This document shows positions 22,361 through 40,284 of a stretch of 64,000 nt of DNA, piece after piece. Position numbers and translations under genes: made by a program. The first letter of the stretch is position 1. Each line of letters starts with the position of its first letter. The notes beneath the pieces are model-generated. The model did no database searches. It had not been told where the DNA came from and was given only the letters and a program-made list of their open reading frames with translations. The DNA is from Corallococcus macrosporus (GTDB lineage Bacteria; Myxococcota; Myxococcia; Myxococcales; Myxococcaceae): NCBI RefSeq assembly GCF_017302985.1, contig NZ_JAFIMU010000009.1:1-64000 (forward strand), read 5' to 3'.

Positions 22361-22384
22361 CATCCGGTCTCCAAGGAGTGGCCC

Positions 22385-23062: not shown

Positions 23063-23078
23063 GCCTTCCGGATCCGCC

Positions 23079-24392: not shown

Positions 24393-24452
24393 CCCGGGCC
24401 GCCCCCCGGCACACATACGGACCGGACGGTTTTTGGGTAGGATGCCCCCACC

Positions 24453-24941
24453 ATGCCCCCGTACCGGTTGCAGTCGTTGCTGGACATGCGTGAGAAGGCG
24501 AAGGAGGAGGCCGAGCAGGCTTTCTCCGACGCCGTCAAGGCGCTGGCGAAGGAAGAGCAGGAACAGCAGCGCCTGGAGGCGGAGCTGGAGCGCCGCCGCA
24601 AGGAGCGCAAGGCCAAGGTCGCCGAGTACTTCCAGCAGATCATGGCCAAGGGCGCCGGCATCAACGGCATGAACATGATGGGCCGCTTCGAGGAGCGTCT
24701 GAAGGACGACGAAGCCCAGGTCGCCCTCCAGATCGAGCACCAGAAGGAGGTCGTCCGGACGGCCGGCCGCCTGGTGGAGCAGCGCCGCATGCTGATGGCC
24801 GAGGCCGCCAAGGAGCTCAAGGCCATCGAGAAGAACAAGGAGAAGTTCGTCAAGCAGGTCAAGAAGGAACGCCAGGACCGGGAGGAGCTGCAGCAGGAGG
24901 AGATCGGCAGCGCCTTGTTCCTGGCCCGCCAGCGCAAGTAA
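24453..24941 (+). CDS. sctO: T3S central stalk protein (YscO/FliJ family)
   Basis: A 162-residue, almost entirely coiled-coil protein. The N-terminal Y-R-L-Q-S-L-L-D-M-R-E-K-A-K-E-E-A is typical of FliJ. SctO sits in the ATPase hexamer and contacts SctV. A TAGGAT hexamer at 24438-24443, only 9 bases before the ATG, might act as a -10 of a nearly leaderless internal transcript. Position directly after sctN supports the call. Confidence 0.85.
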   Translation: MPPYRLQSLLDMREKAKEEAEQAFSDAVKALAKEEQEQQRLEAELERRRKERKAKVAEYFQQIMAKGAGINGMNMMGRFEERLKDDEAQVALQIEHQKEVVRTAGRLVEQRRMLMAEAAKELKAIEKNKEKFVKQVKKERQDREELQQEEIGSALFLARQRK

Positions 24942-24977
24942 CCTCCCGCCGCCTTCCGTTGAGCCTGGAGAGACGCC

Positions 24978-25895
24978 ATGAGCCGAGTTGATGACGATCG
25001 CGATGCCGCGCGCTTGGCGGAGCGGATGATCCAGGAGCGCAAGCTCGCGGAGGCGAAGACCCAGAAGCGCCTGCAGGGCGACTCCGTCTTCTCCAAGCTG
25101 GTCCAGCAGGGCCAGGCCGAGCAGGCCCAGCCCAAGCAGCTGCAGGAGCAGAAGCAGCCCCTGGGCAAGCAGGTGCTGGCGCGCCTCGCGCAGCAGGGAC
25201 AGGGCAAGACCTTCGACGAGAAGCTGGCCCAGAAGGAGACCGCCACCCCCTTCGCCAAGCCCGGTGAGTCCACCCAGGGCGCCCAGCAGTCCCAGCGCAA
25301 CACCGAGACGCAGCAGATGTCCCGGGGCGGCGAGGCCCGCAAGTCCGAGGTCGTGGAGGAGAAGCGCTCCACGGACGTGCGCGAGAGCGACATGTCCAAG
25401 GCCGAGGGACAGGCCGGCCGGCTGAGCCAGGAGAAGGGCGAGCTGAAGATCGACGTCAACGCCGGTGGCGGCAAGGGCGCGGGCGGCGGGGCCGGCAAGG
25501 AGAAGGACGACAAGGGCGGGCAGATGGCCGCCGCGGCGGGCTTCCGCTTCAACCCCGCGCTGATGGCGCCGGTGCCCGTGGCCAAGCCCAAGGACACCGC
25601 GGGCTCCGAGCGGCTGCGCGCCATGGCGAACGAGATCGCCCAGAAGATCGTCGAGCGCGTGCGCGTGGGCACCAACGCCGCGGGCAACGCGGAGTTCCAG
25701 ATCGACCTGCGCGGTGACGTGCTCAACGGCCTGTCCATCAAGGTCAGCGCGAAGAACGGGAAGATCTCCGCCGTCTTCAGCGGCAACGACCGCGACACGC
25801 TGAAGATGCTCGAAGAGCAGAGCGAAGGCCTGCGCAGCGCCCTGGGTGGCCGGGGGCTGGCGCTTGAAAATCTGAGGTTCGAGGCGAAGACATGA
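24978..25895 (+). CDS. sctP: T3S needle-length/substrate-switch protein (YscP/FliK-like)
   Basis: A 305-residue protein. The first ~200 residues are Gln/Lys/Glu/Gly-rich and low complexity, with many K-L-A-Q, Q-Q-G-Q and Q-K-E type pieces. The C-terminal ~90 residues have the T3S4/FliK pattern: I-D-L-R-G-D-V-L-N-G-L-S-I-K-V, then I-S-A-V-F-S-G, then L-R-S-A-L-G-G-R-G-L-A-L-E. Such proteins act as molecular rulers and, by touching SctU, switch the system from early to late substrates. A ruler implies that something needle- or hook-like is measured. The last 4 bases overlap sctQ (ATGA). Confidence 0.78.
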   Translation: MSRVDDDRDAARLAERMIQERKLAEAKTQKRLQGDSVFSKLVQQGQAEQAQPKQLQEQKQPLGKQVLARLAQQGQGKTFDEKLAQKETATPFAKPGESTQGAQQSQRNTETQQMSRGGEARKSEVVEEKRSTDVRESDMSKAEGQAGRLSQEKGELKIDVNAGGGKGAGGGAGKEKDDKGGQMAAAAGFRFNPALMAPVPVAKPKDTAGSERLRAMANEIAQKIVERVRVGTNAAGNAEFQIDLRGDVLNGLSIKVSAKNGKISAVFSGNDRDTLKMLEEQSEGLRSALGGRGLALENLRFEAKT

Positions 25896-27253
25896 GCCTG
25901 GAGCCGGACGACGAGCCCGGAGTCTTCGAGCGCACCATGTTGGTCGACACCCGGAAGCTGGGACCGCCCCCGAAGCCCGCGCAGGCGCCGGCCGCCGCCC
26001 CGGTCATGCCGTGGCGGCCGTTCGCCTTCCCGCACCTGGAGAAGGTGTCCCGCTCACAGAGCCAGCTGGCGGAGCGGCTGCGCTGGCTCACGCCCAACGC
26101 GGGCACGCTGGAGACCGTCTGCGCGCGCCTCAAGGCCCTCTTCGACGTGGACGTGCGCCTGTCGGTGGAGTCCGCCCAGGCGCGCCCCATGACGGAGCTG
26201 CGCCGCTTCCTGGGCGACCCGTCCTTCCTCGCGGTGCTGGCCCCCGGCGCGCTCAAGGGCCGCGCCATCCTCGAAATCGAGCTGTCGCTGGCGCACTCGG
26301 CGGTGGACCTGCTGCTGGGCGGCGCCGGTGAGACGGTGGGCCTGCGGCCGCTGACGGACATCGAGGAGGGCGTGATGGGCTACGTCGTCCTGGAGGCCCT
26401 GAAGGAGCTGGTGCCCGGGCTGCAGCCCGGCGTCCCCCGGCCGCGGCTGGATGGCGTGGCGCGCGGCGTGGACGAGGTCTCCGCGCGCCTGGGCGAGGAC
26501 GGCCCGATGCTGGCCGTGCACCTGAACGCGGTGCTGGGCCCGCACCGCGGCATCGTGCGGCTGGTGGTGCCGTCGGCGGTGCTGGAGGCGGCCGAGCCCG
26601 CGGTGGAGAGCGCCCAGCGGCGCGACCATCGCCGGCAGGACATGAAGGCCAACGGGCGGCGCCTGTCCGCGCTGCGCGACTGGCTGCGCGCGGAGATTGG
26701 CGTGGCGGAGCTGTCCGCCCAGGACCTGGCGTCGTTGCGCGTCAAGGACGTGCTGCTGCTGGACATGCTGTCGGCACGGCCGGACAAGGGCGAGGACGGC
26801 ACGGCGCAGCTGCGGCTGGGGCTGGGCCGCACCGGCCACTTCGCGGTGGACGTGTTCCTGGAGAACGACCGCTACCGCGCGCGCATCACGGACATCGTCC
26901 CCGGGGAGCCGGGCAACCCCCAGGGTGGGGAGTCCGGCGGGCCGGAAGAGAACGAGGACTTCACCAACCCGGAGCTGGGCGTTCCTCCGGAACTCGAAGG
27001 GGCGGCATTGGACGACAACAACCGGGACGGAAGCGATCTGCTCAGCGACCTGCCCCTGCAGGTGGCGGTGGAGCTGGCGCGCGTGCCCATCACGGCCGAA
27101 CAGGTGGTGGGCTTGCGCACAGGCCAGGTCATCGACCTGCGCCGTGGGGCGGGGGAGCCCGTGGACCTGTCGGTGAATGGCAAGGTCGTGGCCCGGGGCG
27201 AGCTCGTGGAGCTGGAGGGACAGCTCGGCGTTCGCATCATCCACCTGAGCTGA
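25892..27253 (+). CDS. sctQ: T3S cytoplasmic ring protein (YscQ/FliM-FliN family, SpoA domain)
   Basis: A 453-residue protein of the sorting platform. The central region has FliM/HrcQ-like strands, and the final ~65 residues are a SpoA domain (L-P-L-Q-V-A-V-E-L, G-Q-V-I-D-L, V-D-L-S-V-N-G-K-V-V-A-R-G-E-L-V). It is translationally coupled to sctP by the ATGA overlap. I see no internal start clearly marked for a separate C-terminal SctQ product, although some systems use one. Confidence 0.9.
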   Translation: MSLEPDDEPGVFERTMLVDTRKLGPPPKPAQAPAAAPVMPWRPFAFPHLEKVSRSQSQLAERLRWLTPNAGTLETVCARLKALFDVDVRLSVESAQARPMTELRRFLGDPSFLAVLAPGALKGRAILEIELSLAHSAVDLLLGGAGETVGLRPLTDIEEGVMGYVVLEALKELVPGLQPGVPRPRLDGVARGVDEVSARLGEDGPMLAVHLNAVLGPHRGIVRLVVPSAVLEAAEPAVESAQRRDHRRQDMKANGRRLSALRDWLRAEIGVAELSAQDLASLRVKDVLLLDMLSARPDKGEDGTAQLRLGLGRTGHFAVDVFLENDRYRARITDIVPGEPGNPQGGESGGPEENEDFTNPELGVPPELEGAALDDNNRDGSDLLSDLPLQVAVELARVPITAEQVVGLRTGQVIDLRRGAGEPVDLSVNGKVVARGELVELEGQLGVRIIHLS

Positions 27254-27355
27254 AGCGCGTGTGCCCGTGCGTCACAGGGCAGGCGGGCAGGGGGGCGTGC
27301 TCGTGCCCGGGCCCGTGGCGGTTCTGACTCGGGTGCACTAGGCTCGCGCGCATCC

Positions 27356-28015
27356 ATGGCGGTCCTCGGTCTTTCCTCCTCGCGCCTGCTGCTCGGCGCA
27401 GCGCTCCTCCTCGCGTCGCCCGCCGTCCTGGCGCAGGCGCCCGTGGCCTCCACGCCGGATGCCACCGTCGCGGCGCCGGCCCCGGAGGCCGCCGAGCCCC
27501 AGGCCGTGAAGCCCGCGGCTCCCTCGGCTCCCGCGCTGGCCCCCGCCACCGGTGATGGCGCGGCCCGCGCGAAGCGCCACGCGGATGAGCTGGACCGCGA
27601 GCTGGGCATCGAGCCGGAAGCCGACGCGGCGCAGGAGAGTCTGGGCTGGGTGGTGGTGCGCACGGTGGCGCTGTTGGGCGCGGTGCTCGCGGCCATCTAT
27701 CTCACGCTCAACGTGGGCCTGCGCAGGTTGATGGGGCTGCAGGGCGTGCCCGTGGGCAAGGCGTCGGTCGTGTCGGTGATGGAGCGCATCCCGTTGGATC
27801 AACGGCGCACGCTCTTCGTCCTGAAGGCCGCGGACGAGTACCTGCTGGTGGGTGGCGGCGAGGGTGGCGTGCAACTGGTTTCGAAGCTGGACCGCGACGC
27901 CGTGGAGCGCATCCGCTCCGCGCGTCCGCCGTCTTCGCCGGTGTCCCTGAGTCCTTTCCTCCAGAAGCTCCTCTCCCGCCGGACCGGTGGCACCACGCCG
28001 CCGCCGGGCGTCTGA
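27356..28015 (+). CDS. FliO-like flagellar-type export-gate assembly protein
   Basis: A 219-residue protein: signal-peptide-like N-terminus (ending L-A-Q-A), an Ala/Pro-rich periplasmic linker, one membrane helix (about 98-120), and a cytoplasmic domain with the FliO pattern (S-V-V-S-V-M-E-R-I-P-L-D-Q-R-R-T-L-F-V-L, then Y-L-L-V-G-G). FliO helps FliP/SctR assemble. It lies directly upstream of sctR, as fliO-fliP do in flagellar operons. FliO is normally absent from injectisomes. A TAGGCT hexamer at 27339-27344 may be an internal -10. Confidence 0.78.
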   Translation: MAVLGLSSSRLLLGAALLLASPAVLAQAPVASTPDATVAAPAPEAAEPQAVKPAAPSAPALAPATGDGAARAKRHADELDRELGIEPEADAAQESLGWVVVRTVALLGAVLAAIYLTLNVGLRRLMGLQGVPVGKASVVSVMERIPLDQRRTLFVLKAADEYLLVGGGEGGVQLVSKLDRDAVERIRSARPPSSPVSLSPFLQKLLSRRTGGTTPPPGV

Positions 28016-28025
28016 AGGCCGTCCC

Positions 28026-28853
28026 GTGAACCGTTCGTCTCCCGCCGCCCGTCCGCTGCTGTTCCGCGCCCCGCCATGGCTCTTCGCGGCCCTCGTGTCG
28101 CTGCACCCCTTCGTCGCGTCCGCGGCGAAGAAGGGCGGGGACGGGCTGCCGGATGAACTGGTGAAGGAGGCGGTGAACACCGACTCGTTCACCTCCCGTC
28201 CGCTCATCCTCATCCTCGCGCTCGCGGCCATGTCGCTGGTCCCGTTCGCGCTGATGATGGTGACCAGCTTCGTCAAGATCTCGGTGGTGCTCTCCATCGT
28301 CCGCTCGGCGCTGGGCACCCAGCAGATCCCCCCCACCCAGGTCATCACCGGCCTGGCCATCATCCTCACCGTCTACATCATGGCCCCCGTGGGCCAGGAG
28401 ATGTACCGGGCGGGCGGCATCGACATCTGGTCCCGGGGAACGTCGGTGTTCTCCTCGGAGACCGTGGGCACGATGCTGGGAGCCGCGGACAAGTCCAAGG
28501 AACCGCTGCGCGAGTTCCTGATGAAGAAGGTCACCAACAAGGACCGCACGCTCTTCTACAGCCTGGCGAAGAAGATGCGGAAGGAGGAGGACCGCAAGGA
28601 CATCGGCCCGAACGACTTCATGGTCATCGTGCCGGCCTTCGTCGTGTCCGAGCTGAAGGAGGCCTTCCAGATTGGCTTCCTCCTGTTCGTGCCCTTCATC
28701 GTCATCGACATGGTGGTCGCCAACATCCTGCTGGCGCTGGGCATGCACATGCTGTCGCCCACGACCATCTCCATGCCCTTCAAGCTGCTGTTGTTCGTGC
28801 TCGTGGACGGCTGGTACCTCATCGCCAAGGGCCTGGTCATCGGCTACCTGTAA
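28026..28853 (+). CDS. sctR: T3S export-gate protein (FliP/YscR family)
   Basis: A 275-residue membrane protein. Like FliP and unlike most SctR it has an N-terminal signal peptide (about residues 1-34, ending V-A-S-A-A). The core has the family pieces M-M-V-T-S-F-V-K-I-S-V-V-L, Q-I-P-P-T-Q-V-I-T-G-L, and F-V-V-S-E-L-K-E-A-F-Q-I-G-F, with four membrane helices. GTG at 28026 follows the FliO-like stop by 10 bases and gives the signal peptide. Forms the export gate with SctS and SctT. Confidence 0.95.
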   Translation: MNRSSPAARPLLFRAPPWLFAALVSLHPFVASAAKKGGDGLPDELVKEAVNTDSFTSRPLILILALAAMSLVPFALMMVTSFVKISVVLSIVRSALGTQQIPPTQVITGLAIILTVYIMAPVGQEMYRAGGIDIWSRGTSVFSSETVGTMLGAADKSKEPLREFLMKKVTNKDRTLFYSLAKKMRKEEDRKDIGPNDFMVIVPAFVVSELKEAFQIGFLLFVPFIVIDMVVANILLALGMHMLSPTTISMPFKLLLFVLVDGWYLIAKGLVIGYL

Positions 28854-28869
28854 GGAGCCCCGTACTCCC

Positions 28870-29136
28870 ATGAATCAGCTCACGTTCATCACCCAGGAGG
28901 CGCTGTTCCTGGTGCTCGTGGTCTCCGCGCCGCCGGTGCTCATGAGCCTCCTGGTGGGCTTCATCATCGCCCTGTTCCAGGCCACGACCCAGATCCAGGA
29001 GCAGACGCTCACGTTCGCGCCCAAGGTCGTCCTCGTCTTCGGCGTGCTGGCCATGACGGGCCCCTGGATTGGCGGACAGTTGTTGCGCTTCACCTTCCAC
29101 GTCTTCGACCGCTTCCCGGCGCTCATCGGCAGATGA
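28870..29136 (+). CDS. sctS: T3S export-gate protein (FliQ/YscS family)
   Basis: An 88-residue protein with two membrane helices in a hairpin. The family segment A-L-F-Q-A-T-T-Q-I-Q-E-Q-T-L-T-F-A-P-K is intact. The ATG at 28870 was chosen because the frame extends upstream into sctR without a start in context. Its last 4 bases overlap sctT (ATGA), which suggests coupled translation. Confidence 0.95.
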   Translation: MNQLTFITQEALFLVLVVSAPPVLMSLLVGFIIALFQATTQIQEQTLTFAPKVVLVFGVLAMTGPWIGGQLLRFTFHVFDRFPALIGR

Positions 29137-29951
29137 ACATCGGCGAAGCCATGGCCGAGCTGGGCGCTCGGGTGAACCTGTCGGTCACCATCTTCACGGT
29201 GGCACTCATCATGTGCCGCGTGATGCCCATCCTCATCTTCAGCCCCTTCCTGGGCGGCGAGGTCGTTCCCTCGGAGATGAAGCTGGGCCTGGGCCTGATG
29301 GTGTCCGTGGTGCTGTTCCCGTCCGTCGCGGACCGGATGGACAAGATTCCCCTGAGCGCGCTCCCGTACATCGGGCTGCTGCTCAAGGAGATCTTCATCG
29401 GGTTGTCGCTGTCGTACATCGTCAACATCGTCTTCGACGCGGCCCGGGTCGCGGGCAACCTGATGGACACGATGGCGGGCAGCAACAACGCCCAGCTCTA
29501 CGTGCCGCAGCTGGGGCAGCAGGTGTCGCTCTTCTCCAGCCTCAAGGTGCAGCTGTGCGTGGTGCTGTTCCTGTCGCTGGACGGCCACCACGTCATCATC
29601 CGGGCGCTCGCGGAGAGCCTGGCGGTGGTGCCGCTGGAGGGCTTCCCGCACTTCAGCCGGGGCGTGTGGCCCTTCTTCGACCTGATGATCCGCTCCTTCG
29701 CGGACCTGCTGAAGATCAGCCTGGCGCTGGCGGGGCCCGGCATGGTGGCCGCCTTCGCCACCGACCTGGCCATGGGCGCCATCAACCGCGTGGCCCCGCA
29801 GATCCAGGTCTTCTTCATCGCGATGTCGCTCAAACCGCTGATGAGCGTGCTCATCATCTTCGTCTCCATCCACGTCATCATCGGCCGCATGCAGGGCGAA
29901 ATGGGCGCCATGCTCCGCATGGTGCGGCAGGCCATCCAGCTGCTGGGTTGA
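29133..29951 (+). CDS. sctT: T3S export-gate protein (FliR/YscT family)
   Basis: A 272-residue integral membrane protein with six to eight predicted helices and family segments such as L-L-L-K-E-I-F-I-G-L-S-L-S-Y-I-V and D-L-A-M-G-A-I-N-R-V-A-P-Q-I-Q-V-F. SctT caps the SctR5-SctS4 export gate. Length is normal. Follows sctS with a 4-base overlap and precedes sctU by 19 bases. Confidence 0.95.
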   Translation: MNIGEAMAELGARVNLSVTIFTVALIMCRVMPILIFSPFLGGEVVPSEMKLGLGLMVSVVLFPSVADRMDKIPLSALPYIGLLLKEIFIGLSLSYIVNIVFDAARVAGNLMDTMAGSNNAQLYVPQLGQQVSLFSSLKVQLCVVLFLSLDGHHVIIRALAESLAVVPLEGFPHFSRGVWPFFDLMIRSFADLLKISLALAGPGMVAAFATDLAMGAINRVAPQIQVFFIAMSLKPLMSVLIIFVSIHVIIGRMQGEMGAMLRMVRQAIQLLG

Positions 29952-29970
29952 GGGCTCCCGGGACCGCACC

Positions 29971-31053
29971 ATGTCGGACGAGAGTGGCGACAAAACAGAG
30001 GAACCGTCGCAGAAGAAGCTCGACGATTCCCGCAAGAAGGGGCAGGTCTGGAAGAGCAAGGACCTGACGGGCGTCGCCGTGCTCGTGGCCGGCCTGGGCA
30101 TCGCCCGGGGGACCTGGAGCACGGTGGAGTCGGAGGTCTCCGCGCTCTTCCTCTTCACCTTCGACGTCATCGCCCATCCGGACCGCCTGGACCTGGCGAT
30201 GTCGCAGATCCTCTACATGGCGCTGAAGACGCTGGCCGTCCTCACGCTCCCGGTGGCGGCGGGGGCCGCGGCCATGGGCGGGCTGATGGAGTTCCTGCAG
30301 GTCGGGTCGCTGTTCACCATGGACCCGATCATGCCCAAGTTCGACAAGCTCAACCCCATCTCGGGCTTGAAGAACATGTTCACGAAGAAGGCCTTCGTCG
30401 AACTGCTCAAGAACCTCATCAAGATTTCCGTCGCCGCGTACGTCGTCTACGGCGTGGTGCGCGACTCCATGCCCCTGGTCATCGAAACGGTGCGGCAGGA
30501 CACGCACGGCATCATGGCCATCCTGGGGGAGATCATCTACCGGGTGGGCGCGCGCATCATCCTGCTCTTCGTCATCTTCGGCGTGTTCGACGTGTGGTGG
30601 CAGCGCAAGTCGTACATGAAGGACATGATGATGACGAAGGAGGAGGTCAAGAAGGAGTACAAGCAGAGCGAAGGCGACCCGCACCACAAGGCCAAGCGCA
30701 AGGAACTCCACCACGAAATCATGGAGGGAGCCCAGATGGAGGCGGTGAAGGACGCGAGCGTCATCGTCACCAACCCGGACCACGTGGCCGTCGCGTTGAT
30801 GTACGACCAGAACAAGGACGGGGCCCCCCGCGTGCTGGTGAAGGGCATGGACGCCAAGGCGGAGCGCATCAAGGCGCTGGCGAGGGAGGCCGACGTGCCC
30901 CTGCTGCGCAACGTGCCGCTGGCGCACGCGTTGTTGCGCGTGGAGGTGGGCGAGGAGGTCCCCGAGGAGCTCTACGACGCCGTCGCCGAGGTCCTCAACT
31001 TCGTCTACGGGCTGAAGCAGCAGCAGAACGCGGCGCCGCCTGCGCGCGCCTGA
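29971..31053 (+). CDS. sctU: T3S autoprotease/substrate switch (FlhB/YscU family)
   Basis: A 360-residue protein with the FlhB opening (G-D-K-T-E-E-P-S-Q-K-K), four membrane helices and a cytoplasmic domain. Self-cleavage would occur at N268-P269-D270-H271, where most family members have N-P-T-H. The cleaving Asn-Pro is kept; Thr to Asp is a conservative family variant to my knowledge but should alter the switch surface. It is followed 10 bases later by a stand-alone copy of its own C-terminal domain. Confidence 0.95.
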   Translation: MSDESGDKTEEPSQKKLDDSRKKGQVWKSKDLTGVAVLVAGLGIARGTWSTVESEVSALFLFTFDVIAHPDRLDLAMSQILYMALKTLAVLTLPVAAGAAAMGGLMEFLQVGSLFTMDPIMPKFDKLNPISGLKNMFTKKAFVELLKNLIKISVAAYVVYGVVRDSMPLVIETVRQDTHGIMAILGEIIYRVGARIILLFVIFGVFDVWWQRKSYMKDMMMTKEEVKKEYKQSEGDPHHKAKRKELHHEIMEGAQMEAVKDASVIVTNPDHVAVALMYDQNKDGAPRVLVKGMDAKAERIKALAREADVPLLRNVPLAHALLRVEVGEEVPEELYDAVAEVLNFVYGLKQQQNAAPPARA

Positions 31054-31880: not shown

Positions 31881-32357
31881 ATGGCGGCGCTGGACCCCGA
31901 AGACCCGCAGGACGAGGCGAAGCTCACCGCGCTCCTGCAGCGCTGGGCGGAAGGCAAGGCCACGCTCCGCGAGGTGCGCGGCTATTCCAACGACGAGCTC
32001 TACGCCATCGCCAAGACGGCCTACTTCTTCTTCTACCAGGGCCGGGTGGCGGAGGCGCGCACGCTCTTCCAGGGGCTCTACGCCGTCAACCCCACGGACG
32101 TGTACTTCGCCAAGGCGCTGGGCGTGGTGGAGATGGCCGCGGGCAACGGGCAGGGGGCGCTCGCCGCCTTCGACGTGGCCGCGAAGCTGGCCCCGCAGGA
32201 CCCGGCCGTCTACGTGGGCCGCGCCGAGGTGAAGCTGGCCATGGGCCAGAAGCCGCAGGCGCTGGAGGACCTCCGCCGCGCCGCGGCGATGACGCCGGTG
32301 GATGATCCGGTGGTGCGCAAGGCCGGAGCCATGGTCAACGCGCTCACCCGCCGTTAG
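31881..32357 (+). CDS. SycD/LcrH-type T3S chaperone (TPR)
   Basis: A 158-residue TPR protein with the SycD pattern: an N-terminal helix, then L-Y-A-I-A-K-T-A-Y-F-F-F-Y-Q-G-R-V-A-E-A-R, then F-A-K-A-L-G-V-V-E-M-A-A-G-N-G, then a third TPR near 105-140. This arrangement is the class II chaperone fold that holds hydrophobic translocators. Such a chaperone suggests that this system exports translocator-like proteins, although no classic SctE or SctB was recognised. Confidence 0.82.
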   Translation: MAALDPEDPQDEAKLTALLQRWAEGKATLREVRGYSNDELYAIAKTAYFFFYQGRVAEARTLFQGLYAVNPTDVYFAKALGVVEMAAGNGQGALAAFDVAAKLAPQDPAVYVGRAEVKLAMGQKPQALEDLRRAAAMTPVDDPVVRKAGAMVNALTRR

Positions 32358-33082: not shown

Positions 33083-33137
33083 CAGGACTTCCTCGACGGG
33101 GGGCTCCCTTTCTCGGGCTGCCCCCTGTTCCGGAGAC

Positions 33138-33167
33138 GCAACTTCTCGCCCCGTCGGCGGATAATCC
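33138..33167 (+). promoter_or_regulatory. Candidate sigma-28-type promoter for the 33204 gene
   Basis: GCAAC begins at 33138 and ATAATCC ends at 33167, exactly 23 bases from first G to first A of ATAATCC, as before the 16465 gene. The -10 octamer G-C-G-G-A-T-A-A has one mismatch to GCCGATAA. The start codon is 37 bases downstream. Confidence 0.62.
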
Positions 33168-33203: not shown

Positions 33204-33578
33204 ATGGCTGGTGGAGTGAATGGTGTCGGCGCGGGCAGCGGCGCGCAGCGCAAGCAGTCGACCAACACGGAAGCCCAGAAGCAGCAGGCCGTCCAGGACG
33301 CCATCAACGCGTCCGTTGCCCGCATGAAGGAGGACGAGGGCAAGACGAGCTACCTGGGCGAGGGCCGCATCGACAAGGTGAAGGAGAAGGTCGCCGAGGA
33401 GATGGAGACCTTCATGAAGGAGAACCCCAACGCCACGCCCGAGGAGATCAAGGCGAAGGCGGAGGAGAGCGCCTCCAAGAACGAGACCAATGCCGGCTTC
33501 GAGAAGATGCGCGACGACAACTTCTTCAAGAAGCTGATGTCCCGCCGCAAGGAGCTCATCCGGGACATGTGGGGCTGA
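33204..33578 (+). CDS. Small Lys/Glu-rich protein under a sigma-28-like promoter
   Basis: A 124-residue protein with a Gly/Ser N-terminus (A-G-G-V-N-G-V-G-A-G-S-G), like the opening of the FlgM-like candidate at 17584. The rest is charged and helical, ending R-R-K-E-L-I-R-D-M-W-G. The flexible N-terminus and the promoter shared with the needle-like genes suggest a late T3S substrate or its partner. Function unknown. Confidence 0.62.
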   Translation: MAGGVNGVGAGSGAQRKQSTNTEAQKQQAVQDAINASVARMKEDEGKTSYLGEGRIDKVKEKVAEEMETFMKENPNATPEEIKAKAEESASKNETNAGFEKMRDDNFFKKLMSRRKELIRDMWG

Positions 33579-34586: not shown

Positions 34587-34615
34587 GGTCCGCGGTCCGC
34601 GGCCCGCAAAAGCGA

Positions 34616-34648
34616 AGAGCCGGCCTCCCGCGAAGGAGGACCGGCTCT
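34616..34648 (-). terminator. Hairpin terminator of needle-like copy 1
   Basis: AGAGCCGG (34616-34623) pairs with CCGGCTCT (34641-34648), with inner CCTCC/GGAGG and a short loop. On the - strand it is followed by TCGCTTTTG. The same hairpin ends every repeat unit. Confidence 0.75.
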
Positions 34649-34673
34649 CGTACGCCCAGGGAAAGCGGCGGAA

Positions 34674-34898
34674 TTACTTGGTGTTGCCGATGATCGACAT
34701 GGCGATGTCGCTCAGCTTCTTCATGATGTTGGAGGCGAACGCGGCGGCCTCCTGCTGCTTCTGGAGCATGAGCTGCGCCTTGGCGCGGGTCAGGTCGTCA
34801 CCCTTGAGGCCCTTCAGGGTGGCGGACTCCGTCTCGTTCAGCTCCTGGGAGGCGTTGAAAGCGGTGCGGACTGCAGAGCCAGCGACGTCAGCGTTCAT
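34674..34898 (-). CDS. Needle-like small T3S protein, copy 1 (SctF candidate)
   Basis: A 74-residue helical protein; all four copies encode the same protein. Size matches YscF/EscF/PrgI needles (about 73-87). No signal peptide. Two helices around a G-L-K-G-D-D turn; the second ends S-N-I-M-K-K-L-S-D-I-A-M-S-I-I-G-N. The S...K...D....I.N spacing is that of needle C-termini as I know them. A GGAG site lies 6 bases before the ATG. Copy 1 differs from the others by one silent base (34881). Could instead be a pilin-like or secreted filament protein; needle identity is an inference from size, pattern and location. Confidence 0.6.
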   Translation of the reverse strand: MNADVAGSAVRTAFNASQELNETESATLKGLKGDDLTRAKAQLMLQKQQEAAAFASNIMKKLSDIAMSIIGNTK

Positions 34899-34949
34899 GG
34901 GAGTCTCCGAAGGTTGAGGCGGGTAGTACCGCGAAGCTGCTTACAAAGA

Positions 34950-34979
34950 GGATTATCCGAGGCCGCGCCGAAGAGTTTC
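34950..34979 (-). promoter_or_regulatory. Candidate sigma-28-type promoter, needle-like copy 1
   Basis: On the - strand GAAACT begins at 34979 and ATAATCC ends at 34950, 23 bases from first G to first A of ATAATCC. The spacer differs from copies 2 and 3 while both blocks are kept. About 51 bases before the ATG. Confidence 0.62.
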
Positions 34980-35048
34980 CTCCCCCCTATTTTCTCCCGA
35001 ATTTTCCCGGGGATCCAGGGGGGCCCCCGAGAAGGCCCGCAAAAGCGA

Positions 35049-35081
35049 AGAGCCGGCCTCCCGCGAAGGAGGACCGGCTCT
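35049..35081 (-). terminator. Hairpin terminator of needle-like copy 2
   Basis: Same hairpin as at 34616, offset by 433 bases. Confidence 0.75.
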
Positions 35082-35106
35082 CGTACGCCCAGGGAAAGCG
35101 GCGGAA

Positions 35107-35331
35107 TTACTTGGTGTTGCCGATGATCGACATGGCGATGTCGCTCAGCTTCTTCATGATGTTGGAGGCGAACGCGGCGGCCTCCTGCTGCTTCTGGAGC
35201 ATGAGCTGCGCCTTGGCGCGGGTCAGGTCGTCACCCTTGAGGCCCTTCAGGGTGGCGGACTCCGTCTCGTTCAGCTCCTGGGAGGCGTTGAAAGCGGTGC
35301 GGACTGCAGAGCCGGCGACGTCAGCGTTCAT
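35107..35331 (-). CDS. Needle-like small T3S protein, copy 2 (SctF candidate)
   Basis: Same 74-residue protein as copy 1, with the same leader apart from small changes just before the ATG. It differs from copy 1 by a silent base at the position equivalent to 34881. A full unit with promoter and terminator, so it should be transcribed on its own. Confidence 0.6.
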   Translation of the reverse strand: MNADVAGSAVRTAFNASQELNETESATLKGLKGDDLTRAKAQLMLQKQQEAAAFASNIMKKLSDIAMSIIGNTK

Positions 35332-35384
35332 GGGGTGACTCCGAAGGTTGGAAGCGGGTGGGTACCGCGAAGCTGCTTACAAAA

Positions 35385-35414
35385 GGATTATCCGGGCGAG
35401 CTTTCCGGAGTTTC
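35385..35414 (-). promoter_or_regulatory. Candidate sigma-28-type promoter, needle-like copy 2
   Basis: GAAACT at 35414 and ATAATCC ending at 35385 on the - strand, 23-base spacing as in copy 1. The -10 octamer is C-C-G-G-A-T-A-A. Confidence 0.62.
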
Positions 35415-35477
35415 CTCCGGCCTTTTCTTTCTGATTTTCCCCCGCCGCCGCCGGGGCGCGCGAGCCCGCAAAAGCGA

Positions 35478-35510
35478 AGAGCCGGCCTCCCGTGAAGGAG
35501 GACCGGCTCT
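35478..35510 (-). terminator. Hairpin terminator of needle-like copy 3
   Basis: Same hairpin, with one loop base changed (CGTGAA instead of CGCGAA). Confidence 0.75.
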
Positions 35511-35535
35511 CGTACGCCCAGGGAAAGCGGCGGAA

Positions 35536-35760
35536 TTACTTGGTGTTGCCGATGATCGACATGGCGATGTCGCTCAGCTTCTTCATGATGTTGGAGGCGA
35601 ACGCGGCGGCCTCCTGCTGCTTCTGGAGCATCAGCTGCGCCTTGGCGCGGGTCAGGTCGTCACCCTTGAGGCCCTTCAGGGTGGCGGACTCCGTCTCGTT
35701 CAGCTCCTGGGAGGCGTTGAAAGCGGTGCGGACTGCAGAGCCGGCGACGTCAGCGTTCAT
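35536..35760 (-). CDS. Needle-like small T3S protein, copy 3 (SctF candidate)
   Basis: Same 74-residue protein. One silent change (35632, Leu codon) separates it from copies 2 and 4. Upstream region is identical to that of copy 2, so this pair is the most recent duplication or was homogenised by gene conversion. Confidence 0.6.
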   Translation of the reverse strand: MNADVAGSAVRTAFNASQELNETESATLKGLKGDDLTRAKAQLMLQKQQEAAAFASNIMKKLSDIAMSIIGNTK

Positions 35761-35813
35761 GGGGTGACTCCGAAGGTTGGAAGCGGGTGGGTACCGCGAA
35801 GCTGCTTACAAAA

Positions 35814-35843
35814 GGATTATCCGGGCGAGCTTTCCGGAGTTTC
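35814..35843 (-). promoter_or_regulatory. Candidate sigma-28-type promoter, needle-like copy 3
   Basis: GAAACT at 35843 and ATAATCC ending at 35814 on the - strand; identical to the copy 2 promoter. Confidence 0.62.
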
Positions 35844-35906
35844 CTCCGGCCTTTTCTTTCTGATTTTCCCCCGCCGCCGCCGGGGCGCGCGAGCCCGCAA
35901 AAGCGA

Positions 35907-35939
35907 AGAGCCGGCCTCCCGCGAAGGAGGACCGGCTCT
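35907..35939 (-). terminator. Hairpin terminator of needle-like copy 4
   Basis: Same hairpin, offset by 429 bases from that of copy 3. Confidence 0.75.
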
Positions 35940-35964
35940 CGTACGCCCAGGGAAAGCGGCGGAA

Positions 35965-36189
35965 TTACTTGGTGTTGCCGATGATCGACATGGCGATGTC
36001 GCTCAGCTTCTTCATGATGTTGGAGGCGAACGCGGCGGCCTCCTGCTGCTTCTGGAGCATGAGCTGCGCCTTGGCGCGGGTCAGGTCGTCACCCTTGAGG
36101 CCCTTCAGGGTGGCGGACTCCGTCTCGTTCAGCTCCTGGGAGGCGTTGAAAGCGGTGCGGACTGCAGAGCCGGCGACGTCAGCGTTCAT
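35965..36189 (-). CDS. Needle-like small T3S protein, copy 4 (SctF candidate)
   Basis: Same 74-residue protein and the first copy read from the distal promoter region. Its upstream sequence beyond about 36247 has diverged from the other units but keeps the promoter blocks and the leader (TTTTGTAAGCAGCTTCGCGG on the - strand). It is divergent from the TPR gene at 36464 across 273 bases that hold only these promoters. Confidence 0.6.
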   Translation of the reverse strand: MNADVAGSAVRTAFNASQELNETESATLKGLKGDDLTRAKAQLMLQKQQEAAAFASNIMKKLSDIAMSIIGNTK

Positions 36190-36240
36190 GGGTGACTCCG
36201 AAGGTTGATGCGGGTGGGTGCCGCGAAGCTGCTTACAAAA

Positions 36241-36271
36241 GGATTATGGCGGATCAGGGGCCGGAAGTTTC
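36241..36271 (-). promoter_or_regulatory. Candidate sigma-28-type promoter, needle-like copy 4
   Basis: On the - strand GAAACT begins at 36271 and ATAATCC ends at 36241. The spacing is one base longer than in the other five instances, and the bases before ATAATCC are CGCC rather than CGG. Spacer sequence is unrelated to the other copies, so the two blocks appear to be under selection. Confidence 0.55.
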
Positions 36272-36463
36272 GTCCCCATTTTCCGATCATTTTCCGACCC
36301 GCGAGCAGGGCGCCAGATCCGACCGTGGGCGTGGAGGGACGCACCCTCTTTGAAGGTTGCGCCGATAACAGCTTAAAGTGTCCGCGCCCGGCACCCCTCC
36401 CGTCCCTCAAGAGGCGGTTTTCCGGGCACGACTTCCTGTCCTCCCTCTGAGGGACCCGCGCTG

Positions 36464-36931
36464 ATGACGACCGAATCCAAGGCTCCGGTGTCGAACGACA
36501 ACACCCGGCCGCTCTCCGGCCCGGAGATGCTCGAGCGCGCCACTGAAGGCTTCAACCTGTTCCAGGACGGCCGCTTCAGCGAGTCCCTGCCCATCTTCGA
36601 GAAGCTCTCGGCCATGGACCCCCGGGAGGCCTACTTCCAGACCGCCCTGGGCGCCTGTCACCTGGCGCTGGAGGACCTGGACACCGCGGTGGAGTGCTTC
36701 AACCGCGCCATCGAGCTGGACCCCAGCGACATCACCCCCTTCGTCAACCGGGGCGAGGCGTTCCTCCGTCAGGGCCGCACGATGGAGGCGGCCCGCGACT
36801 TCCAGCATGCCGTGTCGCTGGACCCCGAGGACAAGGACCCCTTGAGCCGCCGGGCGCGCATGCTCGCCGCCGCGGCCCTGGAGAGCTCGGACGAGGCTTC
36901 GGAATCCGAAGCCCCCGAGGACCGCTCTTAG
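36464..36931 (+). CDS. TPR protein, third T3S chaperone candidate
   Basis: A 155-residue protein with about three TPRs (F-Q-D-G-R-F-S-E-S-L-P-I-F, A-L-G-A-C-H-L-A-L, A-I-E-L-D-P-S-D-I) and an acidic Ser/Glu tail. Lies between the needle-like array and sctV. It could be a SycD-class or YscG-type (needle) chaperone. A perfect FliA -10 octamer GCCGATAA is at 36361-36368, but without a matching -35. Confidence 0.66.
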   Translation: MTTESKAPVSNDNTRPLSGPEMLERATEGFNLFQDGRFSESLPIFEKLSAMDPREAYFQTALGACHLALEDLDTAVECFNRAIELDPSDITPFVNRGEAFLRQGRTMEAARDFQHAVSLDPEDKDPLSRRARMLAAAALESSDEASESEAPEDRS

Positions 36932-36977
36932 GCTGACCGCAGGCTCCCTCTCCGGACAGGGGAGGGATGGCCCCCCC

Positions 36978-37007
36978 TTGGGCTCGGGGGCGGGCACGGA
37001 TTAGGAT
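36978..37007 (+). promoter_or_regulatory. Candidate promoter of sctV, TTGGGC-N18-TAGGAT
   Basis: TTGGGC (36978-36983) and TAGGAT (37002-37007). If TAGGAT is the -10, transcription would start near 37013-37014, which favours the ATG at 37018 over the ATG at 37006 that overlaps the hexamer. Confidence 0.4.
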
Positions 37008-37017
37008 GGCCGCGCCG

Positions 37018-39144
37018 ATGGCCAACGCCGATCCGAACAGCTTCCTGAACAAGTACTCCGACATCGTCCTGGCCGTGGTCGTCGTGGCCATCGTGGCGAT
37101 GATGATCGTCCCGCTGCCGACGATCATCCTGGACGTGTTGCTGACGCTGAACATCAGCATCTCGGTGGTACTGCTCCTCATCTCCCTCTACGTGCCCAGC
37201 GCGCTGTACCTGTCGTCGTTCCCGACGATCCTGCTGATCACGACGATGTTCCGCCTGTCGCTGACCATCTCCACCACGCGACTCATCCTGCTCACCGGTG
37301 ACCCGGGCGAAGTGGTGGTGGCGTTCGGTAACTTCGTGGTGCAGGGCAACTTCGTCGTCGGCGCCATCCTCTTCCTCATCCTGGTGGTGGTGAACTTCAT
37401 CGTCATCTCCAAGGGCTCGGAGCGCGTCGCGGAAGTGGCCGCGCGCTTCACCCTGGACGCGATGCCCGGCAAGCAGATGTCCATCGACGCGGACCTGCGC
37501 GCCGGCGTCATCGATCAGGATCAGATGAAGAAGAAGCGCCGCGACCTGGAGCGTGAGAGCCAGCTCTTCGGCGCCATGGACGGCGCCATGAAGTTCGTGA
37601 AGGGCGACGCCATCGCGTCCATCATCATCACGGTCATCAACATCGTGGGCGGCCTCATCATCGGCGTGACCCAGAAGGGGATGGCCGCCGGTGACGCCGC
37701 GCAGAAGTACACGCTGCTCACCATCGGTGACGGTCTGGTCGGCATGATCCCCGCCATCCTCATCTCCACGTGCGCCGGTATCCTGGTGACCCGCGTGGGC
37801 GGCGAGGAAGAGGGCGCGCACCTGGGCAAGGACGTGGGCTCGCAGCTCACCGCCTTCCCGAAGGCCATCGCCATCGCGGCGGCCATGCTCGTGGGCCTGG
37901 GCCTCATCCCCGGCCTCCCCAAGATTCCCTTCTTCCTGCTGGGCGCGGGCGCGGGCTTCGGCGCGTACACGATGATGCGCAAGCGCGATGAGGCGATGGC
38001 CGCCGAGGAGGCGGGCCCCGCGACGGAGTCCAGCTTCGGCACGCCCGTGTCCTCCGAGCCTCCACCCAAGGCGGAGCTCAACCCGGACTCGGAGCTGTTC
38101 ATCCCCGTCGTCACGCCCATCGTGCTGGAGGTGTCCGACGCGCTGGTGCCCTTCGTGGACTCGCGGCAGGACGGCGGCAAGTTCCTCTTCGAGCTCATCC
38201 CGTTCATGCGCGACGGCCTCTTCGTGGAGCTGGGCGTGCGCTTCCCCGGCGTGCGCGCGCGCGGCAACGGCGGCCTGCCGCCCGGGGCCTACCAGATTCA
38301 GATCAACGAAGTGCCCGTCGTCACCGGCCAGGCCACCCTGGGCCACATCCTGGTGAACGACACGGTGGAGCGCCTCAAGCTGATGAACATCCCCGGCTTC
38401 GAGGCCATCAACCCCGCGACGCGCCAGCCGGCCGCGTGGGTGCCCGAGCAGTTCCGGGAGACGCTCGAGTCCGCGGGCCTCACCACCTGGGACGTGCCCG
38501 GCTACATCATCCTGCACACCGCCGCCGTGCTCCGGAAGAACGCCCGCGAGTTCGTGGGCGTGCAGGAGACGCAGACGATGCTGGAGCAGCTGGAGAAGGC
38601 GTTCCCGGCCATCGTGAAGGAAGTCGTCCCGAAGATCGTCAACGTGCTGAAGCTGACGGACATCCTCGGACGCCTGGTGGAGGAGGAGATCTCCATCCGC
38701 GACCTGCGCGGCATCCTCCAGGCACTGTCGGAGTACGGGCAGGTGGAGGCGGACAACGTCATGCTCACCGAGCATGTCCGCGCCTCGCTGCGCCGCTACA
38801 TCTCCCACAAGTACGCGCGCGGCACCGGCACGCTGGTGGTGTACCTGCTCGACCCGAACATCGAGGAGGCCATCCGCAGCTCCATCAAGCGCACCTCCGC
38901 GGGCGCCCACCTGGCGCTGGAGCCGGAGATTGCCCAGGAGATCGTCGGCGCGGTGCGTTCGGAGTGCGGCCACCTGCCGCCCAGCGCCCAGCGCCCCGTC
39001 ATCCTCACGGCCATGGACATCCGCCGCTACGTGCGCAAGCTGCTGGAGTACGAGTTCAACCCCTCGTTCTCCATCCTCAGCTACCAGGAGCTGTCCCCCG
39101 AGCTGAACATCCAGCCGGTGGCGCGCATCTCCTCCGGCCGGTAG
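37018..39144 (+). CDS. sctV: T3S major export-gate protein (FlhA/YscV family)
   Basis: A 708-residue protein. The N-terminal half has about eight membrane helices with the FlhA/LcrD segments F-P-T-I-L-L-I-T-T-M-F-R-L-S-L and A-G-V-I-D-Q-D-Q, plus A-R-F-T-L-D-A-M-P-G-K-Q-M-S. The large cytoplasmic C-terminal domain forms the nonameric ring that receives chaperone-substrate complexes. Length is normal. ATG 37006 is in frame but is less consistent with the promoter. Ends before a strong bidirectional terminator. Confidence 0.96.
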   Translation: MANADPNSFLNKYSDIVLAVVVVAIVAMMIVPLPTIILDVLLTLNISISVVLLLISLYVPSALYLSSFPTILLITTMFRLSLTISTTRLILLTGDPGEVVVAFGNFVVQGNFVVGAILFLILVVVNFIVISKGSERVAEVAARFTLDAMPGKQMSIDADLRAGVIDQDQMKKKRRDLERESQLFGAMDGAMKFVKGDAIASIIITVINIVGGLIIGVTQKGMAAGDAAQKYTLLTIGDGLVGMIPAILISTCAGILVTRVGGEEEGAHLGKDVGSQLTAFPKAIAIAAAMLVGLGLIPGLPKIPFFLLGAGAGFGAYTMMRKRDEAMAAEEAGPATESSFGTPVSSEPPPKAELNPDSELFIPVVTPIVLEVSDALVPFVDSRQDGGKFLFELIPFMRDGLFVELGVRFPGVRARGNGGLPPGAYQIQINEVPVVTGQATLGHILVNDTVERLKLMNIPGFEAINPATRQPAAWVPEQFRETLESAGLTTWDVPGYIILHTAAVLRKNAREFVGVQETQTMLEQLEKAFPAIVKEVVPKIVNVLKLTDILGRLVEEEISIRDLRGILQALSEYGQVEADNVMLTEHVRASLRRYISHKYARGTGTLVVYLLDPNIEEAIRSSIKRTSAGAHLALEPEIAQEIVGAVRSECGHLPPSAQRPVILTAMDIRRYVRKLLEYEFNPSFSILSYQELSPELNIQPVARISSGR

Positions 39145-39225: not shown

Positions 39226-40284
39226 TCAGGCGCCCGCGAGCACGGCGATCATCAACACCAGGAAGCTCAGCCCCACCACGCCCATCACGATGAGCGGGAC
39301 GAGCTTCTTCTTGTCCGCGAGCGCGGACACCGGCGCGGGTTCGGGCTCCGGCTCGGGCATGGACTCGCCCATCCCGGCGTCGGGCTGCGGCTCCTCGGAG
39401 GAACCGTCGGGCTGCGGCTCCTCGGACGCGGCGGGCTCCTCCGGCGGCGCGGGGGCGGGCTCGGGCTCCGGTTCGGGCTCCGGCGGGGGCGGCTCCTCGC
39501 GCTTGGGCGGGGAGGGGCGCGGCGGGGAGGGGGCCGGGACGACGGCGGAGCTCTCCGAGGAGAGGCTCACGGCGGGCTCGTCCGGCGGCTCGGCGGGGTC
39601 CACGTAGACGAAACGGGTGGCGCCAATCTCCAGCTCGTCGCCGTCCTTGAGCGCCTTGCGGTTCACCCGCTTCTTGTTGACCTTGATGCCGTTGCGGCTG
39701 CCCAGGTCCTCCACGTGCGTGCCGGACCAGTCGCGGCGCACCTTGGCGTGCTTGCGGGAGACGAGGTCGTCCTTGAGGATGACGTCGGCTTCCTTCTCGT
39801 CGCGGCCGAAGATGTGCTCCTGGGCCTCGGAGATTTCGATGCGCTGGCCCTCGCGGGGGCCGTTCATGTAGCGCAGGAAGCGCTCCTCGCCACCGGACAG
39901 GCCGCGCATCGCGTCCTTCAAGGCTCCGCGCGCGAGGAAGGACGTCTTGTCGCTGACGTCCGGGGCGATCTCCACGACCTTGTCGAAGCGGACGTCGTAC
40001 TGCGCGATGGCGATGACGTCGCCGTTGCGCAGGAGCTCCTTCTCCCCCTTGGGGAGCGCCTTGCCGTTGATCTTCGTGCCGTAGGCGCTGCCCAGGTCCT
40101 CCAGGAAGTAGAGGGTGCCCTCCTGGATGATGCGCGCATGGTTGCGCGACACCGCCTGCTGCGGGAGCACCACCTGGCAGGTCTTGTCCCGCCCCAGGGT
40201 GATGACGGAGTCGTCGAGGACGACCTCTTTGCCCGAGGCGCCGCCGGCCTCGCTGCGCTGTGTGACGGTCAGACGGACGCTCAT
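39226..40284 (-). CDS. Tail-anchored protein with two FHA domains
   Basis: A 352-residue protein. Two FHA (phosphothreonine-binding) domains: one near 20-85 (I-T-L-G-R-D-K-T-C, S-R-N-H-A) and one near 150-215 (H-I-F-G-R-D, S-R-K-H-A-K-V, N-G-I-K-V-N). A long Pro/Glu-rich linker leads to one C-terminal membrane helix and almost nothing after it. It might bind phosphorylated proteins of Ser/Thr kinases, which are numerous in myxobacteria. SctD of injectisomes has an FHA domain too, but with a large periplasmic part that is missing here. Confidence 0.85.
   Translation of the reverse strand: MSVRLTVTQRSEAGGASGKEVVLDDSVITLGRDKTCQVVLPQQAVSRNHARIIQEGTLYFLEDLGSAYGTKINGKALPKGEKELLRNGDVIAIAQYDVRFDKVVEIAPDVSDKTSFLARGALKDAMRGLSGGEERFLRYMNGPREGQRIEISEAQEHIFGRDEKEADVILKDDLVSRKHAKVRRDWSGTHVEDLGSRNGIKVNKKRVNRKALKDGDELEIGATRFVYVDPAEPPDEPAVSLSSESSAVVPAPSPPRPSPPKREEPPPPEPEPEPEPAPAPPEEPAASEEPQPDGSSEEPQPDAGMGESMPEPEPEPAPVSALADKKKLVPLIVMGVVGLSFLVLMIAVLAGA

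Follow-up and report, generated by a model that had tools for sequence, protein, structure and literature searches.

Does a type III secretion (T3S) system that is described as needleless carry genes for a needle? This question is raised by a 64,000-nucleotide (nt) stretch of Corallococcus macrosporus DNA (contig NZ_JAFIMU010000009.1, positions 1 to 64,000; GC 70%), which is referred to as the window and belongs to a genome of 9.8 Mb. Between the SctU and SctV blocks of a T3S locus identified by Pfam and NCBIfam, the window contains four tandem copies of a gene for a protein of 74 amino acids (aa), P0001. The original prediction was that these copies encode needle subunits of the SctF type in a locus of a reportedly needleless kind. 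The latter description agrees with the literature, as far as the excerpts of these papers go: Abby and Rocha (2012; PMC3459982) report that the Myxo T3S systems (T3SSs) have neither SctF nor secretin, which would have been found if present, and the term needleless or the absence of a needle homologue is repeated in PMC12075869, PMC10433427, PMC10849154 and PMC12288465. The window locus probably corresponds to the T3SS termed T3SS* in Myxococcus xanthus, because its gene content and synteny match those of the sctU side in M. xanthus AM003 (L048) and of the entire locus in genome G116 (L063/L064). The M. xanthus clusters are MXAN_2434-2464 for T3SS* and MXAN_5643-5654 for T3SS(2) (PMC10196010, in part). 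The published gene list of T3SS* is without a needle, whereas a needle family, a second needle-like gene, a FliA-like sigma factor and a shared upstream motif are recognised here. The analysis leads to the conclusion that the array probably encodes the SctF needle subunit of the Myxococcaceae T3SS*, within a sigma-28-like regulon that would produce the needle together with candidate predation effectors.

The four units of 429-433 bp are readily recovered. A repeat finder detects four 300-nt copies with 99-100% identity and spacings of 433, 429 and 429, and TRF gives a period of 429 with 3.8 copies and 95% matches. The 74-aa product is identical across all four open reading frames (ORFs). As originally noted, the copies differ within the coding sequence only at offsets 17 and 128 (34881 and 35632 in the window), and both changes are silent because the four proteins are identical. 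It is scarcely conceivable that these ORFs are not genes but chance frames of a tandem repeat or the reverse of a plus-strand gene. An ORF of 286 aa does overlap the array on the plus strand, but codon-position composition favours the minus-strand frames (GC3 0.91-0.92, GC2 0.40), other genera have members of the P0001 family (with identities of, for instance, 66, 58, 51 and 49%), and each array gene is preceded by a conserved bipartite motif, GGAAACT-N17/18-ATAATC, and by a Shine-Dalgarno-like sequence. In addition, the ratio of nonsynonymous to synonymous substitution rates (dN/dS) is 0.06-0.31 between the three closest species; it is 0.40 for G062/G071, and dS is at most 0.45. Of the promoter and terminator that had been assigned to each copy, the promoter stands in the form of the bipartite motif, but not as a sigma-70-type site, none being found in the array by a sigma-70 promoter scan. 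The terminator stands only in part, as a strong hairpin 3' of each stop codon (-38 kcal/mol, z -2.7 to -3.8 by folding), but the T run is short and a terminator scan of the array does not call the hairpins; it calls only two plus-strand sites, which are not above shuffles.

The sole Pfam match of P0001 is the needle family PF09392 (E 0.018). Likewise, the sole match of P0001 in the PDB by phmmer is chain 7y6c_F (E 0.19), which carries the name of a co-chaperone, but whose matched fragment is itself PF09392 at 8e-17. The match is strengthened by profiles. Profile A1, made from 16 relatives found with P0001, matches 7y6c_F at E 0.0028, and profile A4, made from 18 members of which none was found through PF09392, places this needle chain first among 177,635 PDB sequences (E 6e-5; next row 0.8). 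Profile A3 consists of 23 more divergent members with no known needle among them, and it is not fully independent of PF09392, its L082 row having come from the PF09392 search and its L077 row having been picked after both searches. Against the same 177,635 sequences it gives 12 rows at E <=10, of which seven, including ranks 1-5, are needles (7y6c_F 2.5e-6; MxiH 0.26-0.45; PrgI 0.82-0.98). When the A3 members are compared with Pfam, 11 of 23 match PF09392 at E <=1, a few members having themselves come from a PF09392 search, and the next family is matched by three. A 233-aa tandem relative (L077, genome G085) exceeds the Pfam cut-off of PF09392 and is matched by A1 at E 3e-19 among the ORFs searched. 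By sequence comparison, the 74-aa protein is a member of a conserved family that is related to the needle subunits of T3SSs.

The other properties of the protein are in line with this assignment. With 74 aa it falls in the size range of needle subunits (about 70-90 aa), and it has an N-terminal hydropathy of 1.02, as compared with 2.05-2.57 for three signal-peptide controls; hydropathy is a simple measure and not a predictor, and a fourth control, SctJ, scored 0.45, probably because its start is misplaced. The N-terminal half is variable and the C-terminal half is conserved across the family, and the A3 profile aligns residue by residue to the C-terminus of MxiH. The family shares with SctF needles (MxiH, PrgI, YscF, EscF; PF09392, TIGR02105) the size, the lack of a signal peptide, the position in a T3S locus and the C-terminal pattern ...SN.mK...d...sII.N.r. 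It differs from them in that most members are too divergent to reach the Pfam and NCBIfam cut-offs singly, and in that a genome usually has several near-identical copies, which carry individual promoter-like motifs, with a FliA-like sigma factor nearby and a locus without secretin. The array is classed as a variant of the SctF kind. It is kept apart from canonical injectisomes, since SctC, a feature of the secretin-containing non-flagellar T3SS (NF-T3SS) injectisome, is not found in the window locus. An AlphaFold model of P0001 (one model of moderate confidence, pLDDT 77) has helices at 4-17, 22-28 and 33-73, which is compatible with the helix-turn-helix shape originally proposed; comparisons of this model with known structures do not lift needles above unrelated helical proteins.

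Rod and needle proteins resemble each other. The array may therefore be suspected of encoding extra inner-rod (SctI-like) subunits instead of needles, the more so as A3 has a match (E 3e-7) in an apparent SctI from a second T3S locus. This is highly unlikely. An SctI-like gene (PF17001, NF038054) is already present in the locus, and hhalign finds no alignment of its product with A3 (0.3% probability), which argues against rods in the array. Moreover, PF17001 is not among the 22 families matched by the 23 A3 members, of which 11 match PF09392, and the profile matches in the PDB are needles. The A3 match in the SctI-like protein mentioned above lies at L171 (own genome, C2:478292) and is followed by an SctJ-like gene; this is probably a second, short T3S locus.

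The needle assignment is also supported by the recurrence of the array beside sctV. A search with PF09392 over 145 genomes of the order gives matches in 51 at E <=0.1, two of them over the cut-off, and in one of 14 control genomes. Of 64 PF09392 rows, 33 share a contig with an FHIPEP (sctV/flhA) gene among the matches listed, and all 33 lie within 21.8 kb of it, several of these contigs being whole chromosomes; the other 31 are on contigs without FHIPEP among the matches listed. Among 64 rows picked for the P0001 family, 38 are within 30 kb of FHIPEP, 21 are on contigs without one and five are far from it, again among the matches listed; these five are solo paralogues. Matches to A3 at E <=0.001 occur in 95 of the 96 Myxococcaceae genomes, a count that includes P0002-type proteins, solo proteins and possibly rod proteins. 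Copies were surveyed in loci from Corallococcus, Pyxidicoccus, Myxococcus, Hyalangium and two further Myxococcaceae assemblies, in total 60 needle copies in 17 loci with the window included, and the counted rows come from related genomes. Two to seven copies are held by 15 of the 17 loci, and one each by L078 and L079, the latter of which shows no T3S gene. Sixteen loci have T3S genes; in each of them the copies are next to SctV, in most cases with the SctU block on their other side, and their strand relative to SctV is opposite in eight loci and the same in eight. M. xanthus is included: in AM003 (L048) a DUF1521 gene lies between two copies, of which one is cut by the contig end, and G116 (L063) has the M. 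xanthus-type protein twice, both whole. Orthologues beside sctV in other myxobacteria, for which a check had originally been proposed, are present as recurrent arrays.

Within the arrays, coding DNA is 98-100% identical on average in 13 of 15 loci; L072 (0.87) and L081 (0.96) contain more divergent members. The DNA 121-300 nt upstream of the copies is only 35-71% identical within arrays. That coding identity is far above upstream identity points to homogenisation of the coding units within arrays, presumably by gene conversion.

It is unlikely that the array product is a small T3S substrate which resembles a needle only at its end and acts otherwise, as a tip, an effector or a secreted regulator. 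Such a role would agree with the presence of the motif at solo paralogues off the T3S locus and with the existence of larger proteins with needle-like C-termini (P0002, L134, L172), in which the domain may serve for export or docking. High copy number, near-identity and recurrence beside sctV, however, fit a bulk structural subunit. The solo paralogues are found in several genomes (L121-L125, L151, L157, L158, L165), several of them with the motif. The larger proteins, which are perhaps 'evolved' needle or tip subunits, include L172 (own genome C2:245125, 561-aa frame) and L134 (140 aa). P0002, the second needle-like protein of the window, matches PF09392 at E 0.033 and TIGR02105 (SctF) at E 0.021, both under the cut-off, and is linked to A3 by the genome search (E 3.7e-10) and by hhalign (93.8%).

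The motif upstream of the array genes identifies further genes. The strict pattern GAAACTN{15,21}ATAATC was searched with the reversed pattern as a control. It occurs five times in the 9.8-Mb genome, at the four needle copies and at one gene for a 531-aa LysM/VgrG3-type lysozyme, while the control does not occur. A set of 96 Myxococcaceae genomes contains 213 sites, spread over 67 of them, as compared with two control matches. The 17 surveyed loci contain 57 strict sites, 54 at needle copies (49-174 nt upstream of 54 of the 60 copies) and three at DUF1521 genes. When up to three mismatches of 13 are allowed, the motif is found upstream of all four P0002 orthologues and all 18 DUF1521 genes, and upstream of none of 133 regions of nine other T3S-locus gene types (21 x200, 12 CarbReg, 28 TPR3, 4 sigma, 14 SctV, 17 FHA, 4 SctI, 4 x131, 29 TPR2), the rows of these counts being related species and not independent. 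This is the pattern of flagellar class III genes and FliA, in which the filament subunit and late genes share a promoter and core genes do not, as is the case for the core genes tested here; the difference is that the filament gene of the window is an SctF-type needle and not flagellin. The -10 part of the motif, (G)CCGATAA(TC), resembles the FliA -10 element, and the -35 part, GGAAACT, differs from the FliA sequence TAAAGTTT. As a whole, the motif is described as resembling a FliA/sigma-28 promoter.

A relaxed form of the motif exceeds its control in four genomes (own genome 22 vs 1; G059 17 vs 2; G069 16 vs 1; G116 7 vs 2). The 22 sites of the own genome include three needle copies, the site at 33137 before the 124-aa ORF, C11:40259 (L117) and a site at 34186 inside a gene, which is taken as chance. 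Of the remaining 16, 12 have an ORF start 35-77 nt downstream; the sites L220-L223, with ORF starts 244, 124, 5 and 5 nt away, look like chance. In G116 all seven sites have an ORF start 37-49 nt downstream. For the 24 relaxed sites inspected outside the window (17 in the own genome, seven in G116), an ORF start 35-77 nt downstream is found at 20, as compared with 833 of 4000 positions drawn at random from these stretches, and a start that is also ATG with a ribosome-binding-like sequence is found at 16, as compared with 110 of 4000. A random control with an ill-chosen extra condition (2/17 real vs 28/3000 random) was replaced by this plain one. Of 43 sites located in the stretches around motif matches, 32 are followed by an ORF start at a distance of at most 101 nt; L142 is a doubtful case. 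The sites with spacer 21 (L127, L161, L162) were set aside as chance, those of L128, L155 and one of L164 were set aside for stretch ends, and those of L143, L144, L145, L154 (>360 nt) and L147 (270 nt) were set aside for a distant start.

A candidate reader of the motif is encoded in the T3S operon. The best family of the sigma factor at 17989-18825 is FliA/WhiG (E 9.7e-33), and it is the best FliA match of the genome; it is called FliA-like only, because the curated cut-off of TIGR02479 is not reached. From the co-location and from the shape of the motif, we infer that this sigma factor reads GGAAACT-N17/18-ATAATC. No FlgM is found, and it is a speculation that the 131-aa protein at 17584-17979, a candidate only, is a FlgM-like anti-sigma factor. 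Control of T3S parts of the FliA type is not wholly unprecedented as an idea, because the release of sigma-28 through T3S in a flagellum-like manner is speculated for Chlamydia in an excerpt of PMC10597470.

The genes downstream of the motif are candidates for effectors of T3SS*. In the own genome, L117 (2609-4201; contig C11) is the one gene apart from the needle copies that has the exact motif, and its 531-aa product has LysM and a VgrG3-type lysozyme domain (PF21277, E 3e-53) without a signal peptide. This domain is that of VgrG3-type lysozyme effectors of type VI secretion systems, but in L117 it is free of VgrG and lies behind a T3S-associated motif. The protein is a candidate T3SS* effector. 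Motif-linked proteins similar to it are seen in other genomes of the genus (L138, L159, L160). Seventeen further motif-linked genes (L203-L219; 12 from the own genome, five from G116) were scanned with Pfam. Five of them have wall-acting or wall-binding domains (SLT, LysM, GH19, PG_binding; L206, L208, L210, L212, L219), L216 is a subtilase with a P-domain, L207 is weakly metallopeptidase-like, L217 is weakly hydrolase-like, and the other nine have no credible Pfam match. An N-terminus like that of a signal peptide is seen in none of the 18 motif-linked proteins, L117 included; their hydropathy reaches at most 1.57, as compared with 2.05-2.57 for three signal-peptide controls. In other genomes strict sites are also located before SLT, CHAP and further LysM genes and before solo needle paralogues. 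PG-binding/C39 proteins are seen among the seventeen genes, L205/L215 and L213/L218 look like orthologue pairs between the genus of the window and G116, and two small glycine-rich hydrophobic proteins without a Pfam match (L203:142-534, 131 aa; L209:154-567, 138 aa) are possibly of a pore or translocon type.

In many relatives the array includes or adjoins a DUF1521 gene (L063 at about 7600-8900, L045-L053, L067-L078), which is often accompanied by an LcrH-like TPR gene. In Myxococcus, Pyxidicoccus and other relatives the DUF1521 gene has the upstream motif, and it is of the NopE type, for which metal-ion-inducible autocleavage is characteristic. DUF1521-type proteins are T3-secreted elsewhere (PMC6506597, in part). 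The own genome gives no DUF1521 match in a search whose controls gave no match either.

Several observations weigh against a needle gene under sigma-28-like control. P0001 itself is below the Pfam needle cut-off (15.7 of 29.4 bits) and has no match in NCBIfam, the M. xanthus-type protein alone matches no Pfam family, and the relatives L068 and L070 show only unrelated weak matches. The MxiH and PrgI rows of A3 are absent with A4, in which the divergent members are omitted. Foldseek against the PDB gives no match at E 0.001 or better, and VIA-align gives T3SS-related and flagellar chains at Z 6.2-6.5 only, among unrelated helical proteins, with 8fvu_U (from a needle/NAIP/NLRC4 entry) and 7agx_2F (from a T3SS export-apparatus entry) both scoring Z 6.2, as do such proteins. 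dN/dS is 0.59-0.82 for the other, distant species pairs. As to the regulon, six of the 60 needle copies are without the strict motif, only six of 16 x124 genes have it at up to three mismatches, and the N-terminus of L132, a strict-site protein, looks like that of a signal peptide. The score of the sigma factor falls short of the TIGR02479 cut-off (113.8 of 189.6 bits) and is only narrowly ahead of that of another sigma match in the genome (113.6 vs 109.6 bits). Finally, no tip or translocon is recognised, and the T3S locus is without secretin, PF00263 being found in the own genome only at C2:343574, C15:5576 and C9:90103. The failure of single-sequence searches may be explained, because the link to the needle family runs through a chain of similarity; such searches could miss this family, as the M. 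xanthus-type protein without a Pfam match illustrates. The sole Pfam match, the PDB needle chain in first place, the relative over the cut-off, the proximity to sctV and the recurrent arrays together support needle identity, and the reading as an SctF needle within a sigma-28-like regulon is retained as probable.

The features of the locus are summarised in Table 1. Two of its genes merit a remark. The 682-aa protein at 20312-22360, between sctJ and sctL, has a weak FliG_C match (E 0.00085, under the cut-off); Myxo systems have been reported to be without FliG. The separate gene for an FlhB-C-like protein of 94 aa is conserved in relatives.

Table 1. Array, motif and T3S-locus features, in window coordinates
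Feature	Position	Strand	Remarks
Needle-like (SctF-type) gene, copy 1 in transcription order	35965-36189	minus	74 codons
Needle-like gene, copy 2	35536-35760	minus	one silent change, 35632
Needle-like gene, copy 3	35107-35331	minus	74 codons
Needle-like gene, copy 4	34674-34898	minus	one silent change, 34881
Strong hairpin 3' of stop codon, copy 4	34602-34680	minus	terminator-like, short T run
Same hairpin at other copies	35035-35113, 35464-35542, 35893-35971	minus	terminator-like, short T run
Motif of copy 1	36242-36272	minus	spacer 18
Motif of copy 2	35815-35844	minus	spacer 17
Motif of copy 3	35386-35415	minus	spacer 17
Motif of copy 4	34951-34980	minus	spacer 17
Motif upstream of 187-aa gene	16363-16392	plus	2 mismatches
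Motif upstream of 124-aa ORF 33204-33578	33137-33166	plus	2 mismatches
Second needle-like protein P0002, 187 aa	16465-17028	plus	Gly/Ser/Ala-rich N part, needle-like C-terminal domain
LcrH-like TPR protein	17055-17558		under cut-off
131-aa protein	17584-17979	plus	Gly-rich start; directly 5' of sigma gene
FliA/WhiG-like sigma factor, 278 aa	17989-18825	plus	within T3S operon
SctI-like inner rod	18689-19267	plus	PF17001 E 0.008, NF038054 E 0.0065, both under cut-off
T3S core block	19296-31053	plus	starts: SctJ 19296, FliG-like, SctL 22385, SctN 23079, SctO 24453, SctP/FliK-like 24978, SctQ 25892, FliO-like 27356, SctR 27987, SctS (ORF 28672-29136), SctT 29133, SctU 29971
Separate FlhB/SctU C-terminal-domain gene, 94 aa	31064-31348		directly after sctU
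LcrH/SycD-type chaperone	31881-32357	plus	over cut-off
124-aa signal-less protein, candidate substrate	33204-33578	plus
LcrH-like TPR protein	36464-36931		under cut-off
SctV export gate	36967-39144	plus	TIGR01399 over cut-off
FHA/YscD-cytoplasmic-domain protein, SctD-like	39226-40284	minus

How would such a needle work in a locus without secretin? According to excerpts of PMC10433427, PMC12075869 and PMC10849154, T3SS* gathers at prey contacts and is required for prey lysis, and according to PMC12075869 it is recruited by Kil, both coming together at these contacts. It is possible, if somewhat doubtful, that the needle-family subunit builds only a short periplasmic rod or conduit, and that the Kil/Tad pilus or its secretin completes the path. 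The absence of a secretin from the locus, the position of the three secretins of the genome elsewhere and the joint recruitment of T3SS* and Kil to prey contacts (PMC12075869) are consistent with such a conduit, as is the periplasmic needle-like structure that Abby and Rocha raise for an ancestral secretin-less system (PMC3459982). Multiple copies, nearly all with their own promoter-like motif, suggest in contrast a demand for subunits above that of a short rod.

For an SctF needle under sigma-28-like control, the following sequence of events can be envisaged. As in flagella, the basal machine would be built first, and sigma activity would then cause a burst of needle subunit, in the place of flagellin, and of late substrates. 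The purpose of having several gene copies would be subunit dosage, with gene conversion maintaining their similarity. The needle subunits would exit via SctRSTUV and polymerise on the SctI rod to give a needle or periplasmic conduit, and signal-less hydrolases exported by T3SS* would reach and lyse prey through it. Passage of the outer membrane may be provided by the Kil/Tad pilus secretin, or the pilus itself may serve T3SS*, because the locus is without secretin and Kil recruits T3SS*. This model of export and lysis would fit the published phenotypes, namely the presence of T3SS* at prey contacts and its need for lysis. As a plausible but tentative extension, the 'needleless' T3SS* may be a contact-dependent injectisome with a multi-copy needle and a flagellar logic. 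Once the base is complete, a FliA-like sigma factor, perhaps with an exported FlgM-like 131-aa partner that holds it, would switch on the needle genes and scattered genes for signal-less effectors, among them SLT, GH19, lysozyme-like, protease and perhaps lipase-like proteins, which would be injected into bacterial prey to dissolve its walls.

Searches of the open-licence literature turned up no needle, effector or sigma regulon named for T3SS*, which is not proof of absence from print; the effectors are called unknown in the consulted part of the review PMC10433427, and T3SS occurs in only one reference entry in that of PMC8460266. What appears to be new is the upstream motif on the needle copies, shared with genes for cell-wall hydrolases, together with the FliA/WhiG-like sigma factor of the locus. 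A needle family, recognisable mainly with a family profile, would overturn the premise of papers on the predation T3SS* that no needle is present, on which models are based such as the replacement of the needle by Kil tips and the loss of SctF in the Myxo lineage. The shared motif provides a concrete list of candidate T3SS* effectors, several of which are peptidoglycan hydrolases, and if these hydrolases are T3SS* effectors, the need for T3SS* in prey lysis would be explained.

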